From positions 310,001 to 374,000 of the forward strand of contig NZ_JARBWD010000001.1 in the NCBI RefSeq assembly GCF_030140925.1: DNA of 64,000 nucleotides, in the 5' to 3' direction. This document shows, in pieces, positions 2-63,428 of the stretch (within the stretch, counting starts at the first letter, position 1; every line of letters begins with the position of its first letter). Below the pieces are notes generated by a model, which saw nothing but the letters and a program-made list of their open reading frames with translations, ran no database searches and was not told where the DNA came from. Both the position numbers and the translations under genes were made by a program. Source of the DNA: Parerythrobacter aestuarii. GTDB lineage: Bacteria > Pseudomonadota > Alphaproteobacteria > Sphingomonadales > Sphingomonadaceae.

Positions 2-613
2 GCCGGCAATGATGCCTTGCTGCGCGAAGCCTTTGCCTTGCCGGCGGACGATGGCCTTGATGCCGGATTGCTCGAGCGGATGGGATTGGCGGACCGGGAC
101 ATGGCAACCACGCCGGTTTCCGCGCTCCCGCCGCTGCCGGCCAACGACAACCCGCCATTCTGGCGGCGCTGGCAGGTCCCGCTGGGTGGTGCCATCGCCG
201 CAGGCCTGGCCCTGGCGTTGACGATGACGCTTATGGGGAGCGGGACAATGAGTCCGATCGGCTCTGCGCTAGAGCAAACCCCTTCGGGTCAGATCGCCCA
301 CTTGAAAGGCGATACCGCGGTCACCCCATTGCTGACTTTCCAGTCGGGCGATGGACGATACTGCCGTGAGTTCAATTATGCCAACAGCGGCCGGGAGCGC
401 AGCGGGATTGCATGCCGGGGGCAAGCCGACTGGACCGTCGAGGCCTGGGGTGAAGGGGCTGCAGCAATACCCGACCCCAGTGAAATCGCACTTGCCAGTG
501 GGGCCGCCGAGGGATCGCTGGATGCAACATACCAGCGCCTCGCGGCTGGTGACCCTCTGGCAATGACGCTGGAAAAATCGTTGATTTCAGGTGGTTGGAA
601 GAAATCTCCGTAA
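2..613 (+). CDS. Anti-sigma-factor-like membrane protein (5' truncated)
   Basis: The reading frame is open from the window edge, so the N-terminal part (any sigma-binding domain) is missing; about 203 residues are visible. A Pro-rich linker leads into one hydrophobic segment (VPLGGAIAAGLALALTMTLM, roughly visible residues 63-82), then a domain of about 120 residues with two cysteines (YCREF, GIACRG) that would be periplasmic. This cytoplasmic tail/single helix/periplasmic domain plan is what FecR- or RskA-type anti-sigma factors show, and alphaproteobacterial versions usually follow an ECF sigma gene, which would lie off the left edge. The assignment is inference from architecture; I see no diagnostic zinc motif because the N-terminus is absent. 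The exported RG-repeat protein begins 90 bases downstream and may belong to its regulon. Confidence 0.55.
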   Translation, partial: AGNDALLREAFALPADDGLDAGLLERMGLADRDMATTPVSALPPLPANDNPPFWRRWQVPLGGAIAAGLALALTMTLMGSGTMSPIGSALEQTPSGQIAHLKGDTAVTPLLTFQSGDGRYCREFNYANSGRERSGIACRGQADWTVEAWGEGAAAIPDPSEIALASGAAEGSLDATYQRLAAGDPLAMTLEKSLISGGWKKSP

Positions 614-39580: not shown

Positions 39581-40633
39581 GTGGTTAACGCCGCTGCAAC
39601 CAATGACCTGAAAGCGCGGCTCGTCGCCAAGGCGAAGGAGCTGGGCTTCGTCGCGGTCGGCGTGGCTCCGGCCGAGACTGATCCCGAGCGGGCCCGGCGG
39701 TTGCATGACTGGATTGCTGCAGGCCATCACGGCTCGATGGGCTGGATGGAAGACCGCGCCGATGTGCGCGAAGGCCCGCATTCGATGTGGCCCGAAGCGA
39801 AGAGCGTGATTGCGCTGGGCATGGCCTATACGCCCGAGCATGATCCGCTGGCGCTGGAGGAGCATCCCGACAAGGCGCGGATTTCAGTCTACGCGCAGGG
39901 CCGCGATTATCACGACACGGTCAAGAAAGCGCTCAAGGCGCTGGCCCGCTGGCTGGTCGAACAGGAACCCGAAACAGAGCTCAAGGTGTTCGTCGATACC
40001 GCCCCGGTGATGGAGAAGCCGTTGGGCGAAGCGGCCGGGATCGGCTGGCAAGGCAAGCACACCAATCTCGTCAGCCGCGAGCATGGTAGCTGGCTGTTCC
40101 TTGGTTGTATCTATTGTACCCTCGATCTGGCGCCGGATGCGCCGCATCCGGACCGCTGCGGGAGCTGCAATGCGTGCCAGGCGGCGTGCCCGACCGATGC
40201 TTTCCCAGCGCCCTACCAGCTCGATGCGAGGCGCTGCATTTCCTACCTCACCATCGAGCATTCAGGCCCGATTCCCGAGGAATTCCGAGGCCCTATCGGC
40301 AACCGTATCTACGGCTGCGACGATTGCCTGGCGGTCTGCCCGTGGAACAAGTTTGCCGATGCTGCCGCCCGTCACAAGGCCTTCGCCCCGCGCGAGGAAT
40401 TGGTTGCACCGCCGCTGGCAGACTTCCTGGAACTCGACGATGCCGGGTTCCGGACACTGTTTACCGCCTCCCCGATCAAGCGGATCGGGCGAAACCGGTT
40501 CGTGCGTAATTGCCTGATTGCAGCGGGAAATTCGGGTGACGCCGAGCTGCGCGCACCAGTCGAACGCCTGCGCGCCGATCCCGATCCGGTGGTGGCCGAA
40601 GCCGCCGAATGGGCTGCCGCCCGCCTCGGCTAG
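39581..40633 (+). CDS. queG: Epoxyqueuosine reductase
   Basis: Predicted 350 aa, GTG start at 39581 with GGGAG nearby. QueG is the cobalamin- and two [4Fe-4S]-dependent enzyme reducing epoxyqueuosine to queuosine in tRNA. The C-terminal ferredoxin-like domain has both clusters: [16 protein letters not shown] and [14 protein letters not shown]; the N-terminus shows [14 protein letters not shown] and [19 protein letters not shown]. The 3' end overlaps the convergent CoA-transferase by four bases. Confidence 0.97.
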
Positions 40634-41805
40634 CCCTTTTTTTTCACCTGTTCGCGCAGTTCCGCGCCATGTTCGTCGAGCAGCGGTGCATGCCCTGTAA
40701 GCTCATGTTTCCAATCGGAAAACGTGCTGGGCTCGCGCATCTCGACCACTCCGCCTTCGCTGGGATGCGTGGTGCGCTGGATGAAGCCTGTGTCCGCCAG
40801 ATGCGGGTCGTCGATCACTTCGGTAAAATGGCTCACCTTCATTGCCGGGATGCTGTTGTCGCGGCAGATTTTCTCCAGCTCCGCCACGGTGAAATTGGGG
40901 CTCAACTCCATCGCCCGCTCCTGCAGCGCGGCCTGGTTGAAGAACAGCCCGCGCCGGTCGGCAAATCGTTCGTCGCGGGTGAATTCTTCGTCGCCCAGCA
41001 GCACCACAAGGTCCCGGAATCCTTCCAGTCGCGAGGGTGCAATGGCGACGTGACCGTCCTTCGCTGCAAACGGCTTCTGCAAAGGATCGAGCTGGCGCAC
41101 GAACCCCGGCGGGCCCTTGGGCGGATCGAAGGTCAGCCCGCCCATATGCTCTTTCATCATGAAGCTGGTGAAGAGTTCAAACATCGGAATTTCAATATGT
41201 TGGCCGCGCCCGGTGCGCAGGCGGTGGATCACCGCCGCCATGATGGCGTAGGCCCCGTGCAGGCCGGACACCTTGTCCGCCACCAGCGACGGCAGGAAGC
41301 GCGGCGTGGGATCGCCATCGACTTCGCTCAGTAGCGTGACAGTCCCGGTCGCGGCCTGGATGGTATCATCAAACGCCTGCAACCCGGCATAGCGTCCGCC
41401 CGAGCCGTAACCGACACAATGCGCATAGATGATCTCTGGTGCGATTTCCCGCACCGCGTCATAGCCGAAACCGAGCTTCTCGATGGAGGCGCCGCGGATA
41501 TTGTGGACCATGACATCGGCATCGGCCAGCAGGCTGCGCAGGACCTCGGGGTCCTCTTCCTGCTTCAGGTCGAGCACGATCGACTTCTTGCCCCGGTTGA
41601 GCGCGATATGCGTCGCGCTCATCCCGCGATTGACGGCGTATTTGCTGGTGTGCCGCTGGTTGTCGCCGCCCGGGTTCTCGACCTTGATCACTTCGGCCCC
41701 GAAATCGGCGAGGATTTGCGTGCAATAGGGGCCGAACACCATGCTGGTGAGATCGACGACTTTGATGCCTTCGAGCATCGGCTTGCCATCAGCGGGGGCG
41801 ATCAT
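40630..41805 (-). CDS. CaiB/BaiF-family CoA-transferase
   Basis: Predicted 391 aa from the ATG at 41805. Family III CoA-transferase: [39 protein letters not shown] at the N-terminus, [12 protein letters not shown]-like segment, [20 protein letters not shown] with the catalytic Asp of the family. These enzymes move CoA between acyl-CoA and carboxylate donors. Translationally coupled (ATGA) to the upstream ferredoxin-type reductase, an unusual pairing, and 3.5 kb from the CYP153 gene. Possible role in degradation of a hydroxylated or carboxylated hydrocarbon; inference. Confidence 0.92.
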
Positions 41806-43028
41806 AGCATTTCCTTGAGCTGTTTCTCCGCATCGGCCAGTTCTTCCGGGTCGATCATGCTGCGCGCTTCGACCAGCTTGCGGCCCTGGACATAGTCCTT
41901 GGTGCGGTTGACACAATCGAGCGCGATCACCCGGCCATCCTTGAGGTAGACGACGGAGAACGAGCGCTCGCCCGGATCGCCGCGCAGCACGGTGTGATCG
42001 TAGCCCATCGAAATGCCAACGGTCTGAAGCCTGAGATCATACTGGTTGGACCAGAACCATGGGGTCGCCGCATAGGGCTTGGGATCGCCGGTGATGGATA
42101 GCGCCGCGGTGGTCGCCATGTCATTGGCGTTCTGGACCGATTCCAGGCGGATAACCGCGCCGTCGGCAAAGCCATTGGCGTGCGCCGCGCAGTCACCGAT
42201 GGCGTAGACGTCTTCCAGCGAGGTGCGGCAGAACTCGTCGACATCGACGCCGTTGGAGCCCGAAGCGCCGGCAGCGATCAACGGGCCGATCGACGGGACG
42301 ATACCGATCCCGACGATGACGAGATCCGCGGGCAGCACTTCGCCGCCCTCCAGCCGAACGCCGGTGACCTTGGAGCCATCCCCTTCGAGCGCTTCCACCA
42401 TGGCTCCGAGCCGGATATCGACCCCGGCCTCGCGGTGAACGTCCTGGTAAAAGGTCGACAGCTCCTCCCCGGCCACGCGGGACAGCACGCGCTCGAGTGC
42501 TTCGAGGACGGTGACTTCGCAGCCGAGCTTGCGCAGGACGGCCGCCGCTTCGAGCCCGATGTAGCCGCCGCCGATCACAACGGCCCGCTTCGCACCGGCG
42601 TCGAGTTCGGCCATCAGCCGGTCGACATCGGGCTTGTTGCGGATGGCATGAACCCCCGCCAAGTCTGCTCCCGGGCAGGACAGCCTCCGCGGGTCGCCGC
42701 CGGCGGCCCAGACCAGCGTACCGTAGGTCATGGCTGCGTCGTCGGCGAAAGCGAGGCTATGCGCCGCCGGATCGATCGCGACGACGGCGCGGCCCAGCTG
42801 CAAGTCGATTCCCTTGTCGGCCCAGAAAGCCTCTGGACGGATCATGATCCGCTCGAACGGCTTGTCGCGGGCGAGATACTCCTTCGACAGCGGCGGGCGT
42901 TCGTAGGGCGGGTCTTTCTCCCGCGTCAGCAGTGCTATGCTGCCCTCGAAGCCTTTCTGCCGCAGCGCAATGGCAGCCTGCGCGCCGCCGTGCCCCGCTC
43001 CGACGATTACGATATCCGCATGGTCCAT
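41802..43028 (-). CDS. FAD/NAD(P)-dependent ferredoxin-type reductase
   Basis: Predicted 408 aa from the ATG at 43028. FAD motif [40 protein letters not shown]-binding [20 protein letters not shown], and second FAD motif [13 protein letters not shown] match bacterial class-I ferredoxin (putidaredoxin/rhodocoxin) reductases, which supply P450s. It could serve the CYP153 enzyme, although no ferredoxin gene is adjacent. Overlaps the CoA-transferase by ATGA. Confidence 0.88.
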
Positions 43029-43068
43029 TGCTGCCGCATGGGGCGGGCAGCGCCTGATCGTCAAGCGT

Positions 43069-46000
43069 TTAGCGCGACAGCACGTTGCGGGCCTGGCTAG
43101 CGATTTGCGCAAGCATGGCTGGGGCCACCGGAGTGTGCGCCTGCGCCCGCGTGATCATCGCGCGGAACTGGCGAATGGCCGGCTTGTTGTCCTCGATCCA
43201 GGCTTCGACCACCTTGGCGGGGTTCTCTTTCATCCCCTTGCGCCGGGCGATCCGCTCGAGGAAATCGAGCCGCATCTGCTGGAAATCGCGCGCGAGGCCT
43301 GCAACGAGCAGGCGCTCCCAGACATCCGACGGGTTCATCAGCGCCGCCGTGCCCTGCGCCCAGGTCAGGCCAAGCTCGGCCCCGAGCATGGTGAAGGCGC
43401 AGGTCAGCTTGGGTGGGTCGATTTCGGCAAAGCCGGAGAGCTTGGCGAGGCCGACCGATCCATCGAGATCGAACAGGTGGGTGATGCGCTTGCCGATCTT
43501 GTCGGGGAGGCCGCCTTCGGCGAATTCCTTGCGCAAGCGCTCGGACAGGGCGCGGCTTTCATCGGCCAGCAATGTTGCCGTACCTTCGGACAGGATCTTC
43601 ACACCTGCACCCAGCTCTTCGACCACCTTGCTCGGCTTCTTGAAACCGGCGCATTCGCGCAGCAGGTCGGCCATCTGGATGCGCATGGCAACGGCAGCCT
43701 TGTCGAAGGCGAGGATGCGGGTCTGCTCGGGCATCTTCGCCGCGTCGATATCCTCCCAGATGGTGTGGACGTCGAACAATCGCTCGGCCGCGACGAAGGC
43801 AGTGGCGACTTCTGCCAGCCCTACGCCTTCCTCTTCCGCCAATTCGAACGGATGGACGAGGCCCAGCCGGTTGACGATGCGGTTCGAAAGATCAGTGGCG
43901 ATGATCTCGCGCCGCAGCCGGTGATCGGCGATCTCGGCCTTGAATTTCGCGCGCATCGGGGCGGGGAAATATTCGCTCAAGTTGCGCTCGAGCGTCGGGT
44001 CATCGGGCAGCTCGCTGGCTTCGATCGCATCCTGCAGCGCCAGCTTGGCATAGGACAGCAGCACGGCCAGCTCGGGCCGGGCGAGGCCGACGCCATCGGC
44101 GGCGCGGCGGGTGAGCGTCTCGTTGTCGGCGAGACCTTCGGTGCGGCGATCGAGATAGCCCATGTCCTCGAGCGTGTCGGAAACCCTGAGCAGCGAGGCG
44201 GTGGCTTCGCAGCCGCCATATTCAGCGATCGACAGCGCCAGCGCCTGCAGGCGGTTGTCTTCCAGCACGATGTCGGAGACTTCGTCGGTCATCTCCGCCA
44301 GCAGGTTGACGCGCTTTTTCTCCGACAGTCGGCCCGAGCGCCGCGCGGCCGCGAGCGCGATCTTGATGTTGACTTCGTTGTCCGAGCAATCGACCCCGGC
44401 CGAATTGTCGATGAAGTCGGTGTTGATGCGGCCGCCGGCGAGCGCGAATTCGATCCGCCCCGCCTGCGTGACGCCCAAATTGGCACCTTCACCAATCACC
44501 TTGACGCGCAAGTCACGGCCATCGACGCGCATGGAATCGTTGGCCGGATCGCCGACCTGGATGTTGTTTTCACGCTCGGCCTTCACATAGGTGCCGATGC
44601 CGCCGAACCACAGCAGGTCGACCGGGGCCTTGAGGATGGCGGTGATCAGCGCTTCGGGCTCGATGACCGCGTCTTCGATGCCCAGCACATTGCGCGCCGG
44701 CTTGGAGAGCTTGATGCTCTTGGCGTCGCGCGAATAGACCCCGCCACCCTTGCTGATCAGCGAAGCGTCGTAGTCCTCCCAGCTCGAACGCGGCAGGTCG
44801 AACATGCGCTTGCGCTCTTTCCAGCTCTTCGCCGGATCGGGATCGGGATCGATGAAGATGTGGCGGTGGTCAAAAGCGGCGACCAGCTTGATCGCTTTCG
44901 ACAGCAGCATGCCATTGCCGAAGACGTCGCCCGACATGTCGCCGCAGCCAACGACCTGCACCGGCTCGGTCTGCACATCGGTGCCCATCTCGAGGAAGTG
45001 CCGCTGCACGCTGACCCACGCGCCCTTGGCGGTGATGCCCATGGCCTTGTGGTCATAGCCGTTGGAGCCGCCGCTGGCGAAAGCGTCGTCGAGCCAGAAG
45101 TCCTGCGACTGGGCAATGCCATTGGCCACGTCCGAGAACTTGGCCGTGCCCTTGTCGGCGGCGACCACGAAATAGGGGTCTTCCCCGTCGCGGATGGTGA
45201 CGCTCTCAGGGTGCACGATCTTGCCGTTGGCGATGTTGTCGGTGACCGACAGCAGCGTACGGATGAAGACCTCGTAGCTGGCCTGCCCTTCGGCGGCCCA
45301 TCCATCGCGGTCGCGGGCGGGATCGGGCAGTTGTTTGGGATAGAACCCGCCCTTGGCACCCGAGGGAACAATAACCGCGTTCTTGACCTTCTGCGCCTTC
45401 ATCAGGCCGAGGATTTCGGTGCGGAAGTCGTCGCGCCGGTCGGACCAGCGCAGCCCGCCGCGGGCGACCGGGCCAGACCGCAGGTGGATGCCCTCGACAC
45501 GGCGCGAATAGACGAATATCTCACGCCACGGCACCGGCTTGGGCAAGTTGGGGACGAGCGCGGATTCGATCTTGAAGGCCAGCGCTTCCTGTCCGGCCGG
45601 GGCAAAGGCATTGGTGCGCAGGATCGCGTCGATGACCGCGCGGTATAGCCGCAACAGGCGGTCATCGTTGATAGCGGCGACCTTGGCGAGACCGCTCTTG
45701 ATCCGCGTGACGGCGTCGCTTTCGGATTCAGCGCGATTGCCGCCAAATTTCGGATCGTGCCGCGCAATAAACAGCGCGATCAATGCTTTGGTCACTTCGG
45801 GCGCGCGGGCCAGTGCATCGACCACTGTGTAAATCGTGAAGCTGACCCCGGTTTGGCGCAGGTAGCGATAGAAGGCTCGCAGCCATTCTGCTTCCCGCGC
45901 GGCCAGCCCTGTCGAAACCACCAGCCGGTTGAAGGGGTCGTCTTCTGCCTCGGCGTTGAGCACGGCAGAGATCGCCAGTTCGATACTGGCAGCTTGCCCG

Positions 46001-50949: not shown

Positions 50950-52605
50950 ATGATTCCCACAGAACCCGCTGTTGCCAGCCCCGGCGTTCTCGATCGCCGT
51001 CGCTTGCTCAAGGGATTGGGGCTCGGTGCCGGCCTTGCCGCGGCTCCGCTTTCCGCTCAGCTCGGCCAGCACGGCTTCACTCATGGCATTGCCAGCGGCG
51101 AGCCTTCCTCGAATTCGGTCCTGCTGTGGACGCGCTATGTTTCGGACCAACCGGCAACGGTCTTGTGGGAGATGAAGGAGGCCGCGACGGGACGCGTGGT
51201 CGCAGGCGGTGAGATAGAAGCGCATCCCGATCGCGATTGGTGCGTGAAGCCTGTCGCCAGTGGTCTCGAACCGGCAACCTGGTACCTCTACCGATTCCGC
51301 GACGTGCAAGGGAATGTCTCAGCCGAAGGGCGGACGCGTACTTTGCCCGAAGGTGAGACAGATCGCTTCAGCATGGCGGTATTCTCGTGTTCCAACATGG
51401 GTTTCGGCTGGTTCAACGCCTATCGCCATGCCGCCGATGCCGACGAATTCGACCTGGTCGTGCACACCGGCGATTATTTCTACGAATACCAGCCCGGCAA
51501 TTACCCGTCTGCCGAGGAGGCCGTACTGGGTCGTGTGCTCAATCCGGAGCACGAAATAGTCAGCCTCGCCGATTATCGCATGCGCCACGCGATATATCGG
51601 CAAGATCCCGACCTGCAGCGACTGACCCAGCTCTATCCGATGATCATGGTCTGGGACGACCACGAGACCGCCAACGATAGCTATTCCGACGGTGCCGAGA
51701 ACCACCAGCCGGCAAGCGAGGGTGAGTGGTCGGTACGCAAGGGCGTCGCGATGCGGGCCTATCGCGAATGGCTGCCGGTCAGCGACGACAACTGGGCCAG
51801 CTATGAGATCGGCGATCTCGCGTCGATCTTCCGGCTCGAGACCAGGCTGACTGCCCGTTCCAAACAGTTCAGCATTGCCGATGTGCTCAAGGGGAAGAAC
51901 TCCCCTGAAGAGGCCATGCAAGCCCTGCTTGCCTTCAAGCATGGCGATTATCTCGATCCTTCACGTAGCATGATGGGTGCGGAGCAGGAGCGATGGCTTG
52001 CGACAGGCTTGCGGGCTTCACGTGCGGCCGGCAAGCCATGGCAAGTGCTGGCCCAACAGGTTCTGATGGGATCTTCGCGCGCGCCGTCGGCCATTGCCGA
52101 TGCCATGAATGACAGCGTTCCCGATTTCGCCCGCCGGCGGATCATGGCTGCCATCATGGCAAGCAAGGCAGGAATCCCGTTCAACATGGATGCGTGGGAC
52201 GGTTATCCGGCAGCGCGCGAGCGGCTGTTCCAGTCCTCGCTTGAGGCCGATGCAAACCTCCTTGTCCTTGCAGGTGATACGCATAACGCATGGGCGTTCG
52301 AACTGGACCATGGGGGTGCGCGGGTCGGCGTCGAATTCGGCGGGCAAAGCGTGACCTCGCCCGGCGCGGAGGGCTATCTTTCAGCCGTAGCGCCAGAACG
52401 GTTCGCAAAGGGCATTGTCGAAGAGAACCCCCAACTCAAATGGGCAGACACCGCACAGCGCGGCTATATGGCGGTGGAACTGACCCCGGCGCGGGCGACG
52501 AGCGAGTATCGTTTCCTGGAAACCATCCGACACCGCAGCACGCAGCTTGCCGGAACGAAGCGGATTTCCTCTTCGGCAGGCAGTCGCACGCTCGAGCTTG
52601 GTTGA
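50950..52605 (+). CDS. phoD: Alkaline phosphatase D family enzyme, Tat-exported
   Basis: Predicted 551 aa from the ATG at 50950 with GAGGAGAG just before. Tat signal (DRRRLLKGLGLGAGLAAAPL). PhoD metal site residues: VHTGDYFYEYQPG, MVWDDHETANDSYSDG, VLAGDTHNAWAFEL; FSCSNMGFGWFNAYR at the start of the catalytic part. Fe/Ca-dependent phosphomonoesterase/phosphodiesterase outside the cytoplasm. It is separated from thrS by the attenuator region. Confidence 0.95.
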   Translation: MIPTEPAVASPGVLDRRRLLKGLGLGAGLAAAPLSAQLGQHGFTHGIASGEPSSNSVLLWTRYVSDQPATVLWEMKEAATGRVVAGGEIEAHPDRDWCVKPVASGLEPATWYLYRFRDVQGNVSAEGRTRTLPEGETDRFSMAVFSCSNMGFGWFNAYRHAADADEFDLVVHTGDYFYEYQPGNYPSAEEAVLGRVLNPEHEIVSLADYRMRHAIYRQDPDLQRLTQLYPMIMVWDDHETANDSYSDGAENHQPASEGEWSVRKGVAMRAYREWLPVSDDNWASYEIGDLASIFRLETRLTARSKQFSIADVLKGKNSPEEAMQALLAFKHGDYLDPSRSMMGAEQERWLATGLRASRAAGKPWQVLAQQVLMGSSRAPSAIADAMNDSVPDFARRRIMAAIMASKAGIPFNMDAWDGYPAARERLFQSSLEADANLLVLAGDTHNAWAFELDHGGARVGVEFGGQSVTSPGAEGYLSAVAPERFAKGIVEENPQLKWADTAQRGYMAVELTPARATSEYRFLETIRHRSTQLAGTKRISSSAGSRTLELG

Positions 52606-52629
52606 TCCTTTACGCTTTGCCGCTATATC
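52602..52629 (+). promoter_or_regulatory. Promoter candidate for the thrS leader
   Basis: TTGATC (52602-52607) and TATATC (52624-52629) are spaced by 16 bases, four of six matches to each consensus. Transcription would begin near 52636, that is at or next to the ATG of the leader peptide, so the mRNA may be leaderless. The -35 overlaps the phoD stop. Confidence 0.5.
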
Positions 52630-52636
52630 GCAGGCC

Positions 52637-52708
52637 ATGGCCAAGCTGATCGCCACGACCACACCCACCACTACCCCCGGGTTCCGGGGGCGGTCGGTCG
52701 TGGGTTGA
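52637..52708 (+). CDS. Threonine-rich leader peptide of the thrS attenuator
   Basis: Predicted 23 aa: [18 protein letters not shown] followed by RSVVG. Six of residues 7-13 are Thr, encoded by acg, acc, aca, acc, act and acc, broken only by one Pro codon. Leader peptides with runs of the cognate amino acid are the classical sign of transcription attenuation. It lies 134 bases before thrS and overlaps the first hairpin region. No clear ribosome site; the promoter suggests a leaderless start. Confidence 0.75.
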
Positions 52709-52740
52709 ACCCGACTGGCTGCCGCCCGGGATCGGGCGGC
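52674..52740 (+). promoter_or_regulatory. thrS attenuator: mutually exclusive hairpins
   Basis: Region 1 CCCCCGG (52674-52680) pairs with region 2 CCGGGGG (52684-52690); region 3 (GCCGCCCG, 52721-52728) pairs with region 4 (CGGGCGGC, 52733-52740) in an 8-bp stem with a 4-base loop, extended by a T-A pair. Alternatively GGGCGG of region 2 (52688-52693) pairs with CCGCCC of region 3 (52722-52727). A ribosome stalled on the Thr codons covers region 1, frees region 2, so 2:3 forms and the 3:4 hairpin does not. No T run follows 3:4. Confidence 0.65.
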
Positions 52741-52842
52741 ATGCGGCGCAGCTTCCCGATAAATTCCTGCGAACATCACCGCCGCCCCTTTCAGCGCGCG
52801 CCTGCTTGTGCAAAAGGCCCGCGCAAAGCAGACGGACTGAAT

Positions 52843-54843
52843 ATGATGACGGAACTTCTCAAGATCAGCCTGCCCGATGGCTCGGTGCGCGAAATGGAAC
52901 GCGGTTCGACGCCGGCCGATGTGGCCGCAGCGATCGGCCCGGGCCTTGCCAAGGCAGCACTCGCCGCGCGCGTCGATGGCGAAGTGCGCGACTTGAACCG
53001 CCCCTTCGAAGGCGATGCCGAGCTGGCGCTGATCACGTCGCGGGATGAAGCAGAAGCGCTGGAGCTGGCGCGGCACGACTATGCCCATGTGCTGGCCGAA
53101 GCGGTGCAGGCGCTCTGGCCAGGCACGCAAATCACCTTCGGCCCGGCGACCGACGACGGCTTTTATTATGACGTCAAGGCTCCCGAGGACCGCGATCCCT
53201 TCTCGATGGACGACCTTCCGGCGATCGAAGAGAAGATGCGCGAGATCATCACGGCCGACAAGCCGCTGCGCCGCGAAGTCTGGAGCCGCCAGCAGCTGAT
53301 CGACAAGTGGACCGCTGAAGGCGAGACCTTCAAGGCCGAGTGGGCCCAGGAGCTGCCCGAGGATGAGGAACTGACGGTCTACTGGTCGGGTGACGACTGG
53401 CTCGACATGTGCCGCGGCCCGCACCTGGCCTCGACCGGCAAGCTCGACCCGCAGGCGTTCAAGCTGATGCGCGTCGCCGGGGCCTATTGGCGTGGCGACC
53501 AGAAGAACGCGCAGCTTACCCGCATCTATGGCACCGGCTGGCTCAACAAGAAGCAGCTCAACGCGCACCTCATGCGACTGGAAGAGGCTGCCAAGCGCGA
53601 TCACCGCAAGCTGGGCCGCGAGATGGACCTGTTCCACTTGCAGGAAGAAGCGCACGGCTCGGTTTTCTGGCACCCGCAGGGCTACAAGATCTGGCGCGAG
53701 CTGGAGAGCTACATGCGCCGCAAGATGGACGGCGCGGGCTATCGCGAGATCAAGACGCCGCAAGTGATGGACGCGCGCCAGTGGGAGAAATCCGGCCACT
53801 GGGGCAAGTATCGCGAAAACATGTTCGTCATCCCCGACGAGATCCCCAACACCGAGGATGACGGCGACCTGGTGTCGAAGGATGCCGACTGGATGGCCTT
53901 GAAGCCGATGAACTGCCCGGCGCATGTGCTGGTGTTCAAGCAGGGCATCACTTCCTATCGCGACCTGCCGATCCGGCTTGGCGAGATGGGCTGCTGCCAC
54001 CGCAACGAGCCGCATGGCGCGCTGCACGGCCTGATGCGGGTGCGCCAGTTCACGCAGGACGATGCGCACATCTTCTGCACCGAAAGCCAGGTGGTGAGCG
54101 AAGTGCGCGCTTTCATCGAGCTCGCCCACCGCATCTACAAGGACTTCGGCTTCACCTATGCCATCAAGCTGGCGCTGCGGCCCGAGCAACGCTTCGGCAG
54201 CGACGAGGACTGGGACAAGGCCGAGCAGGAACTGCGCGACGCCGTGGCCGAGGCCGGCATGGCCAATGACGACTACGGCTGGGAAGAGCTGCCGGGTGAA
54301 GGCGCGTTCTATGCCCCCAAACTCGAATGGCACCTGACCGATGCGATCGGCCGCACCTGGCAGGTCGGCACGATCCAGGGCGACCGCGTGATGCCCGAAC
54401 GGCTCGATGCGACTTACATCGGCGAGGATGGCGAGAAGCACCGACCGGTCATGCTCCACCGCGCGATCTTCGGTAGCTACGAGCGCTTCATCGGCATACT
54501 GATCGAGCATTTCGCCGGTCGCCTGCCGGTATGGCTGGCGCCGACCCAGGCGGTGGTGGCGACGATCGTTTCGGACGCCGACGATTATGCGAACGAGGCG
54601 GTTGCCAAGCTCAAGGCCGCGGGCATTCGCGTCGAGAGCGACCTGCGCAACGAGAAGATCAACTTCAAGGTGCGCGAGCATTCGGTCGCCAAGGTCCCGC
54701 ACCTGCTGGTGGTCGGCAAGCGCGAGGCCGAGGAAGGCACGGTGGCGGTCCGCACGCTGGGCGAGAAAGAACAGCAGGTGACGAGCTTGGACGAGGCGAT
54801 TGACATGCTCAAGACTGCCGCGACCGCACCGGACCTCGCCTGA
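52843..54843 (+). CDS. thrS: Threonyl-tRNA synthetase
   Basis: Predicted 666 aa, class II synthetase. N-terminal TGS domain ([20 protein letters not shown]), editing domain with [17 protein letters not shown] and the [11 protein letters not shown] loop, catalytic domain with [20 protein letters not shown] (motif 2) and the C-terminal anticodon-binding domain ([14 protein letters not shown]). It charges tRNA-Thr. Start at 52843 (tandem ATG at 52846 equal). Upstream lies the threonine-rich leader and attenuator. Confidence 0.98.
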
Positions 54844-63399: not shown

Positions 63400-63428
63400 G
63401 GCGGCGGGCTAGTCCCGCCGCCTTTTTT
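63400..63428 (+). terminator. Rho-independent terminator after the M23 gene
   Basis: GGCGGCGGG (63400-63408) pairs with CCCGCCGCC (63414-63422) around a 5-base loop and is followed by six T (63423-63428). A clear intrinsic terminator, 58 bases after the peptidase stop. Confidence 0.95.

Follow-up and report, generated by a model that had tools for sequence, protein, structure and literature searches.

A candidate ribosome-mediated threonine attenuator with a probably leaderless leader upstream of thrS in Parerythrobacter aestuarii and its relatives

How is thrS, the gene of threonyl-tRNA synthetase (ThrRS), controlled in Parerythrobacter aestuarii, and does the short threonine-rich open reading frame (ORF) ahead of it take part in that control? 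The question arises from a stretch of 64,000 nucleotides (contig NZ_JARBWD010000001.1, positions 310,001 to 374,000 of the forward strand; hereafter the window) in a genome of 3.0 Mb, whose closest thrS relatives among named records belong to Qipengyuania, Parerythrobacter, and Aurantiacibacter, which by inference places it in the Sphingomonadaceae as GTDB defines them. A preliminary description of the window had proposed a threonine attenuator at this place. We consider it highly probable that thrS is controlled here by a ribosome-mediated threonine attenuator whose leader ORF is probably leaderless. The comparative support extends to the leader ORF, its run of Thr codons, the spacing of its promoter, its RNA helices, and the mutual exclusivity of these helices in predicted folds.

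The threonine leader and its conservation

The leader ORF is placed between a PhoD-family gene, which ends at 52605, and thrS. The elements concerned are the following, numbered from the first base of the window:

52602 to 52629, + strand: leader promoter, with a -35 box TTGATC (52602-52607), a spacer of 16 bases, and a -10 box TATATC (52624-52629); from sequence and conservation in 123 leaders
52637 to 52708, + strand: leader ORF of 23 codons (ATG at 52637, stop codon at 52706-52708), predicted to be leaderless, with transcription starting at or beside 52637; from sequence and relatives
52655 to 52675, + strand: regulatory codons ACG ACC ACA CCC ACC ACT ACC, codons 7-13 of the leader (Thr Thr Thr Pro Thr Thr Thr)
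52843 to 54843, + strand: thrS, threonyl-tRNA synthetase, with the start possibly at the second ATG (52846); from Pfam and homology

As the preliminary description had claimed, the 23-codon ORF carries six Thr codons among seven, and thrS begins at 52843, 134 bases past its stop codon. The thrS product contains the Pfam domains TGS, tRNA_SAD, tRNA-synt_2b, and anticodon-binding, and a thrS homologue was present in 97 of the 98 genomes searched. In its Thr codons and their conservation, the leader shows the abundance of cognate codons that is expected of an attenuator.

Conservation was evaluated in 110 thrS loci (80 from named genomes and 30 from relatives, the window's own included). A Thr-run ORF lies at most 300 bases from thrS in 66 of them, or in 65 of 108 after identical upstream stretches are collapsed into one. 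Among the named records, this near leader occurs in 52 of 80 loci, including those of Qipengyuania (3/3), Porphyrobacter (4/4), Erythrobacter (15/18), Croceicoccus (3/4), Novosphingobium (11/19), and Altererythrobacter (2/3); it was absent near thrS in Aurantiacibacter (0/4) and in single loci of Sphingomonas, Sphingopyxis, Sphingobium, Sphingorhabdus, Stakelama, Caenibius, and Alteraurantiacibacter. Furthermore, a covariance model built from 59 leaders matched 143 of 397 genomes of the family, representing 40 of 96 genera, with filters that lose weak matches. In a class-wide draw, the model matched 4 of 385 genomes, all four in the same family, and in the window's own genome only one place reached a meaningful E-value. 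The Thr run stands in an open frame in 129 of the 130 model-found loci examined (128 with ATG), a count that is partly by construction since the model covers the Thr region. The loss of the run in homologues had been named beforehand as an outcome that would speak against an attenuator, and the run is kept. In a typical leader, Met and a short stretch of residues precede a run of four to eight Thr; some three residues further on comes RGR, in many cases followed by SVAA or LVAA, and then the stop codon. The leaders have 4 to 12 Thr codons each, with a mean of 7 (169 leaders).

A chance or low-complexity ACC repeat would be conceivable in a GC-rich region whose fold z-scores, taken from the window alone, are weak (see below). 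However, in a simulation of 2,000,000 draws at the Thr frequency of thrS, six Thr in a seven-codon stretch arose within 23 codons with a probability of about 1e-6, and this value, together with the conservation in 66/110 loci and 143/397 genomes, rules out such a repeat, whose probability we regard as negligible. A phage origin was also considered, and no match was found in the phage collection searched.

The promoter was compared in leaders that have only one candidate ATG and a sufficient length of sequence ahead of it, which reduced 195 leaders, through 170 without near-identical copies, to 123. In these, a -35/-10 pair stands at a nearly fixed distance from the ATG, with conservation at positions -35 to -31 and -13 to -11 (T in 68% at -35, A or T in 99% at -12, and C in 77% at -1), and no Shine-Dalgarno sequence or purine-rich block appears between the -10 box and the ATG. 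In the window, 7 bases separate TATATC from the leader ATG. Since the -10 box ends about 7 bases before the ATG, transcription is placed to start on its A, and the leader mRNA is probably leaderless. The preliminary description had likewise placed the transcription start at or beside the leader ATG; a strict consensus promoter scan lists no site there, but the promoter position holds across relatives. The -35 box (52602-52607) shares bases with the stop codon of the PhoD-family gene ahead of it.

Alternative RNA helices and their predicted switching

From the end of the Thr run onward, the leader RNA can pair in alternative ways through these segments:

52674 to 52679, + strand: arm 1, pairing with the first half of arm 2; from folds, the weakest helix
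52684 to 52703, + strand: arm 2, the end of the ORF, pairing with arm 1 or with 52709-52729 (arm 3 and the preceding bases); from folds and pair counts
52719 to 52729, + strand: arm 3, pairing with arm 2 (ON) or arm 4 (OFF); from folds and coordinated changes
52730 to 52741, + strand: loop of 3:4 and arm 4, whose partner is arm 3, segment 5, or b' (the last in the window's predicted stall fold)
52743 to 52748, + strand: b, 5' strand of hairpin b:b', GCGGCG; from covariation
52755 to 52761, + strand: segment 5, complementary to the loop and 3' strand of 3:4, with six pairs in the window and up to nine in relatives
52780 to 52785, + strand: b', 3' strand of hairpin b:b', CGCCGC, followed by CCCTTTC with no T tract; from covariation

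The arrangement of 1:2, 2:3 (52709-52729), and 3:4 (52720-52728 with 52733-52741) given in the preliminary description is present in the sequence and folds of the window, and beyond these four classical segments there are an additional 4:5 pairing and the hairpin b:b'. The window folds only mildly better than its shuffles (z of -1.34 and -1.69), and because these scores are weak, the case rests on relatives. Over 100 leaders, the mean z against shuffles was -3.4 for the segment 2..3, -3.5 for 3..4, and -1.5 for b..b'.

Pairing was counted in two alignments and compared against shuffles and slid partners. The first (A1), made with MAFFT without structure, holds 59 of the 66 near leaders; L021, L024, L031, L032, L048, L087, and L097 are absent from it, being near-duplicates, having long insertions, or, in the case of L031, lacking the structure. 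The second (A2) holds 100 of 124 representatives aligned to the covariance model, without L021, which has a long insertion, and without 23 further representatives, most of which match the model less well; 3:4 and b:b' were used in building the model, and A2 therefore leans towards those helices. In A1, 4:5 was paired in 89% of cells, and both partners had changed in 41 cells compared with 15 in shuffles; 2:3 was paired in 94%, with 9 double-changed cells against 1.6; 1:2, 3:4, and b:b' taken together were paired in 87%, with 66 against 25. The corresponding values in A2 were 94% and 43 against 15 for 4:5, 94% and 11 against 2 for 2:3, and 99.5% and 36 against 7 for b:b'.

Coordinated changes were then scored as changes on the same branch of a tree of thrS coding sequences, for 14 variable pairs of four helices. 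Five of them reached p<0.005 (two in b:b' and one each in 3:4, 4:5, and 2:3), compared with none of 198 background pairs. The best pair of b:b' had 9 same-branch changes (its columns change 9 and 10 times; expected 1.2, p 0.00025), that of 3:4 had 7 (expected 2.1, p 0.00075), that of 4:5 had 6 (expected 1.2, p 0.00025), and that of 2:3, the one significant pair among three tested, had 3 (expected 0.4, p 0.0035). Compensatory changes, whose absence from homologues had likewise been named in advance as unfavorable, are therefore seen both in the pair counts and on the thrS tree.

Two single leaders deserve mention beside these counts. In L021, the loop of b:b' holds a long inverted repeat, recognized by eye, that is inserted after segment 5 and ahead of b' and leaves both strands of the hairpin intact, which fits a role of b:b' that is independent of its loop. 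In L031, which comes from a metagenome assembly, the leader ORF stands 50 bases before thrS and everything from arm 3 through b' is gone; either a leader can exist without the hairpins, or this may be an assembly fault (a deletion or a collapse).

The helices exclude one another in predicted folds that follow the position of the ribosome. The ribosome was assumed to cover about 12 bases. When it was placed at the stop codon of each of the 100 leaders, the mean pair probability was 0.87 for 3:4 and 0.86 for b:b', with no 2:3. With the ribosome on the Thr codons, the values were 0.63 for 2:3, 0.42 for 4:5, 0.22 for b:b', and 0.19 for 3:4. The geometry is that of an attenuator: arm 3 starts 13 bases past the first base of the leader stop codon, and in the model a ribosome at the stop codon would mask arm 2, while one on the regulatory codons would leave it free. 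Across relatives, sequence comparison and folding both point to mutually exclusive 2:3 and 3:4 pairings, as in known attenuators. In the window's own stall fold, a long 2:3 hairpin runs through the stop codon, and b:b' is excluded whether arm 4 takes segment 5 or b'.

We infer from this arrangement that the leader is translated, that control depends on threonine, and that it runs in the following direction. Transcription would start at the leader ATG, with a ribosome following. When Thr-tRNA is sufficient, the ribosome would reach the stop codon and cover arm 2, and 3:4 would pair; segment 5 would then remain free of arm 4, hairpin b:b' would form, and thrS would be turned down (OFF). When Thr-tRNA is short, the ribosome would wait on the Thr run and cover arm 1, leaving arm 2 free to form 2:3; arm 4, thus released, would capture segment 5 (or b'), b:b' would be blocked, and thrS would be turned up (ON).

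Several observations weigh against a threonine attenuator of this kind. On the structural side, the 1:2 helix is weakly supported, with 74% of its cells paired in A1, and 9 of the 14 pairs tested on the thrS tree did not fall below p 0.005. A phylogenetic null over all column pairs left one significant pair only, in b:b', and the five pairs ranked after it among 9,180 (E of 0.2 to 1.9) all lie within b:b', 3:4, and 4:5. In a 170-sequence MAFFT alignment, no significant covarying pair was found, apparently because b' is misaligned in a variable stretch. The window's own stall fold pairs arm 4 with b' and does not predict 4:5. On the side of distribution, 44 of the 110 thrS loci have no near leader, although two of these (L015 and L090, from one Alteriqipengyuania genome) have a leader about 590 bases upstream of thrS. 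The covariance model found no match in 254 of the 397 family genomes, nor in G002, a genome of the window's own genus, which has only a poor, perhaps decayed, Thr ORF (L094). Finally, the classical output step is missing, since there is no T tract.

Another reading is that the leader is an ordinary leaderless micro-ORF that senses no threonine, with hairpins that merely shape the 5' untranslated region (UTR) or RNA decay. Leaderless mRNAs are numerous in alphaproteobacteria, with 375 in Caulobacter and 171 in Sinorhizobium meliloti according to an excerpt of PMC4117421. But such a micro-ORF would not account for a Thr-codon run kept before a Thr tRNA synthetase in 40 of the 96 genera searched, for helices that change in a coordinated way and are mutually exclusive in folding, or for another family in which a Thr leader with a canonical terminator precedes thrS. 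We therefore regard it as very improbable and retain the threonine attenuator.

The stopping step and the region before thrS

The preliminary description had identified as its weak point the lack of a T tract after 3:4. This is true of the window and is general in the clade: at least 5 T in 8 bases follow 3:4 in 0 of 100 leaders and follow b' in 2 of 100. Anywhere between the leader stop codon and thrS, 5 T in 8 bases occur in 16 of 66 loci, in scattered places, and TTTTT in 1. A canonical (Rho-independent) terminator after 3:4 or b' is thus ruled out clade-wide by the T-tract counts. Terminator-like sites in the window numbered 12, 15, and 10, compared with 13.1, 13.5, and 14.8 in the respective shuffles (positions 40001-44000 lay outside the scan), and since they are no commoner than in shuffles, the scan says little on the frequency of canonical terminators. 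A strong canonical site, with nine GC pairs and T6, is located at 63400-63422.

The stopping step of the proposed thrS attenuator is atypical, and the output that we favor for the OFF state is that transcription terminates at the tandem hairpins, probably with the help of Rho or some other factor. In one version, the sensor is the same and Rho stops the polymerase: the C-rich, G-poor Thr run of ACC and ACT codons would be a Rho loading site, freed when ribosomes clear and hidden under a waiting ribosome, and 3:4 and b:b' would be pause hairpins. The missing T tract in the clade agrees with this, as does codon usage in 169 leaders, where ACT makes up 22% of the Thr codons compared with 5% in the thrS coding sequence (about four times as frequent) and ACG 20% compared with 39%, and where about 90% of leaders have ACC or ACT as their last four Thr codons. 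Rho-dependent output has also been suggested for mycobacterial Cys leaders without terminators, in an excerpt of PMC1262725. However, the C-rich stretch is short, the RNA downstream folds strongly in both states, and the codon bias may serve pairing or the choice of tRNA. We judge this version a substantial possibility that falls somewhat short of even.

Alternatively, the same sensor could act on translation, with OFF hairpins that hinder ribosome access to the downstream start and an ON state that opens it. An argument for this comes from one genus, in which nine genomes with model matches have the leader before an ORF other than thrS. At the three loci long enough to show it (L197, L199, and L201; L197:274-780), this ORF has 168 codons, starts 86-87 bases past the leader stop codon with the b' strand just ahead of its start, and is followed by thrS. 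Its product has no Pfam match and may resemble exonucleases. The same genus argues against the translational alternative as far as thrS is concerned, since direct control of thrS translation is impossible where a whole 168-codon ORF separates it from the leader, and it fits a role of b:b' that is independent of closeness to thrS. Moreover, b' ends 57 bases ahead of the thrS start codon in the window, and the distance from the thrS-proximal element described next to the thrS start varies from about 31 to 70 bases. Translational output is thus unlikely, and transcription termination at the tandem hairpins remains the favored output.

A further conserved element lies between b' and thrS:

52787 to 52818, + strand: separate conserved element before thrS, CTTYCGG-N12-TGTGCCATGG in relatives and CTTTCAG...TGTGCAAAAGG here

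This element was matched in 178 of 239 loci, with identical inner spacing in 176, and 15 of the 44 loci that lack a near leader have it as well. Its sequence is conserved, with no covarying pairs. The exact consensus gave four matches in 40 genomes, each immediately upstream of thrS; when one mismatch is allowed, matches are mostly found at other places, and a reversed control pattern also gives some. The element may be a second promoter or an operator. In Escherichia coli, ThrRS binds tRNA-like hairpins, similar to the tRNA-Thr anticodon and close to the start codon, in the 5' UTR of thrS and thereby regulates its own translation. Control of thrS through its 5' UTR would be common to both systems, but the sensor proposed here is the Thr leader. 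In principle, the thrS-proximal element may serve as an E. coli-type operator; mimicry of the tRNA-Thr anticodon in it is weak because the G of the needed GU is replaced in 23% of 149 distinct elements.

Known systems and the meaning of the thrS leader

Threonine leaders before thrS are not restricted to this clade. A loose Thr-leader test on 80 further thrS loci (72 outside the family and 8 distant ones inside) passed 7, compared with 5 on the opposite strand, so that only two cases with good anatomy were followed. In a second alphaproteobacterial family, a Thr leader precedes thrS in 7 of the 9 loci scanned (L364, L365, L366, L367, L368, L370, and L371), with a terminator hairpin GACCCTCC...GGAGGG-TTTTTT in six of these (all but L366) and GATATT 7 bases ahead of the ATG, leaderless in appearance, in five. 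These leaders share with those described here a Thr-run ORF before thrS but differ in RNA sequence and in their T6 terminator. In a third family, one genome (L315, the same as L394) has the Thr-run ORF MRTHPVLRSTATTTTTATGGRWRMRA before thrS, with no T tract; 22 other loci of that family were scanned, and no Thr leader was found. Consequently, canonical-form Thr attenuation of thrS seems to exist elsewhere, with the clade studied here representing a form without a T tract.

The classical ribosome-mediated transcription attenuators are the leaders of trp, his, thr, leu, ilv, and pheST. The S. meliloti leader trpL/rnTrpL carries a T tract. The thrS leader has in common with the classical attenuators a codon run matched to the amino acid, alternative 1:2, 2:3, and 3:4 pairings, and a decision taken by ribosome position; it differs in being probably leaderless, in the missing T tract after 3:4, and in the extra 4:5 and b:b' pairings (classical leaders are treated in passages of PMC1262725 and in the abstract of PMC1183508). 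With S. meliloti trpL/rnTrpL, whose transcript begins at the trpL ATG in excerpts of PMC7298713 and PMC10117765, it shares an alphaproteobacterial host and a transcript that would start at the leader ATG; that system differs in sensing Trp, in controlling trpE(G), and in a terminator hairpin that is drawn in a figure legend.

Other aminoacyl-tRNA synthetase genes have comparable leaders. The uORFC-8-2 motif of Rhodobacterales is likewise a proposed ribosome-mediated attenuator of such a gene in alphaproteobacteria, cysS, but has Cys codons, two stems, and a U run at the 3' end in all cases, according to an excerpt of PMC8632094. Caulobacter has a small leader coding sequence before trpS in the excerpted part of PMC4117421, which also makes it a leader peptide ahead of an alphaproteobacterial tRNA synthetase gene, although the gene is different and no structure is described in that part. 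In other bacterial groups, attenuators of pheST, trpS, and leuS are listed in a passage of PMC1262725.

We searched for earlier descriptions of the element. Rfam, whose library includes a T-box model, gave no match in the window at gathering score for Thr_leader or any other family, the T-box included; the best sub-threshold hit had 19.6 bits against 62. Nine related loci gave no Rfam match either, and a known RNA family was rejected on these grounds. In the open-access literature searched, we found no description of a Thr-leader attenuator of thrS and none of an attenuator in this clade. Excerpts of PMC4833913, PMC2965389, and PMC10117765 name no such thrS leader, and that of PMC10117765 mentions, for a different gene, a leader rich in Thr and Lys.

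Attenuators of tRNA synthetase genes are already known; from its sequence, the thrS leader looks as if it works like one of them but without the classical intrinsic terminator. Tentatively, and with rather less than even confidence, we suggest a relay-type attenuator, in which the position of the ribosome on a leaderless Thr leader is passed from 2:3 to 4:5 to b:b', so that six or more segments alternate instead of four, with OFF hairpins that stop transcription without a T tract (through Rho or another factor) and conservation over a large part of one alphaproteobacterial family. The proposed leader adds thrS to the alphaproteobacterial tRNA synthetase genes with a proposed ribosome-mediated attenuator, beside cysS and the trpS leader already in print. 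The clade without a T tract and the other family with the canonical form offer a natural comparison for how RNA polymerase may be stopped without a U run. For the bacteria themselves, the leader suggests that cells probably raise ThrRS when threonine-loaded tRNA is low.

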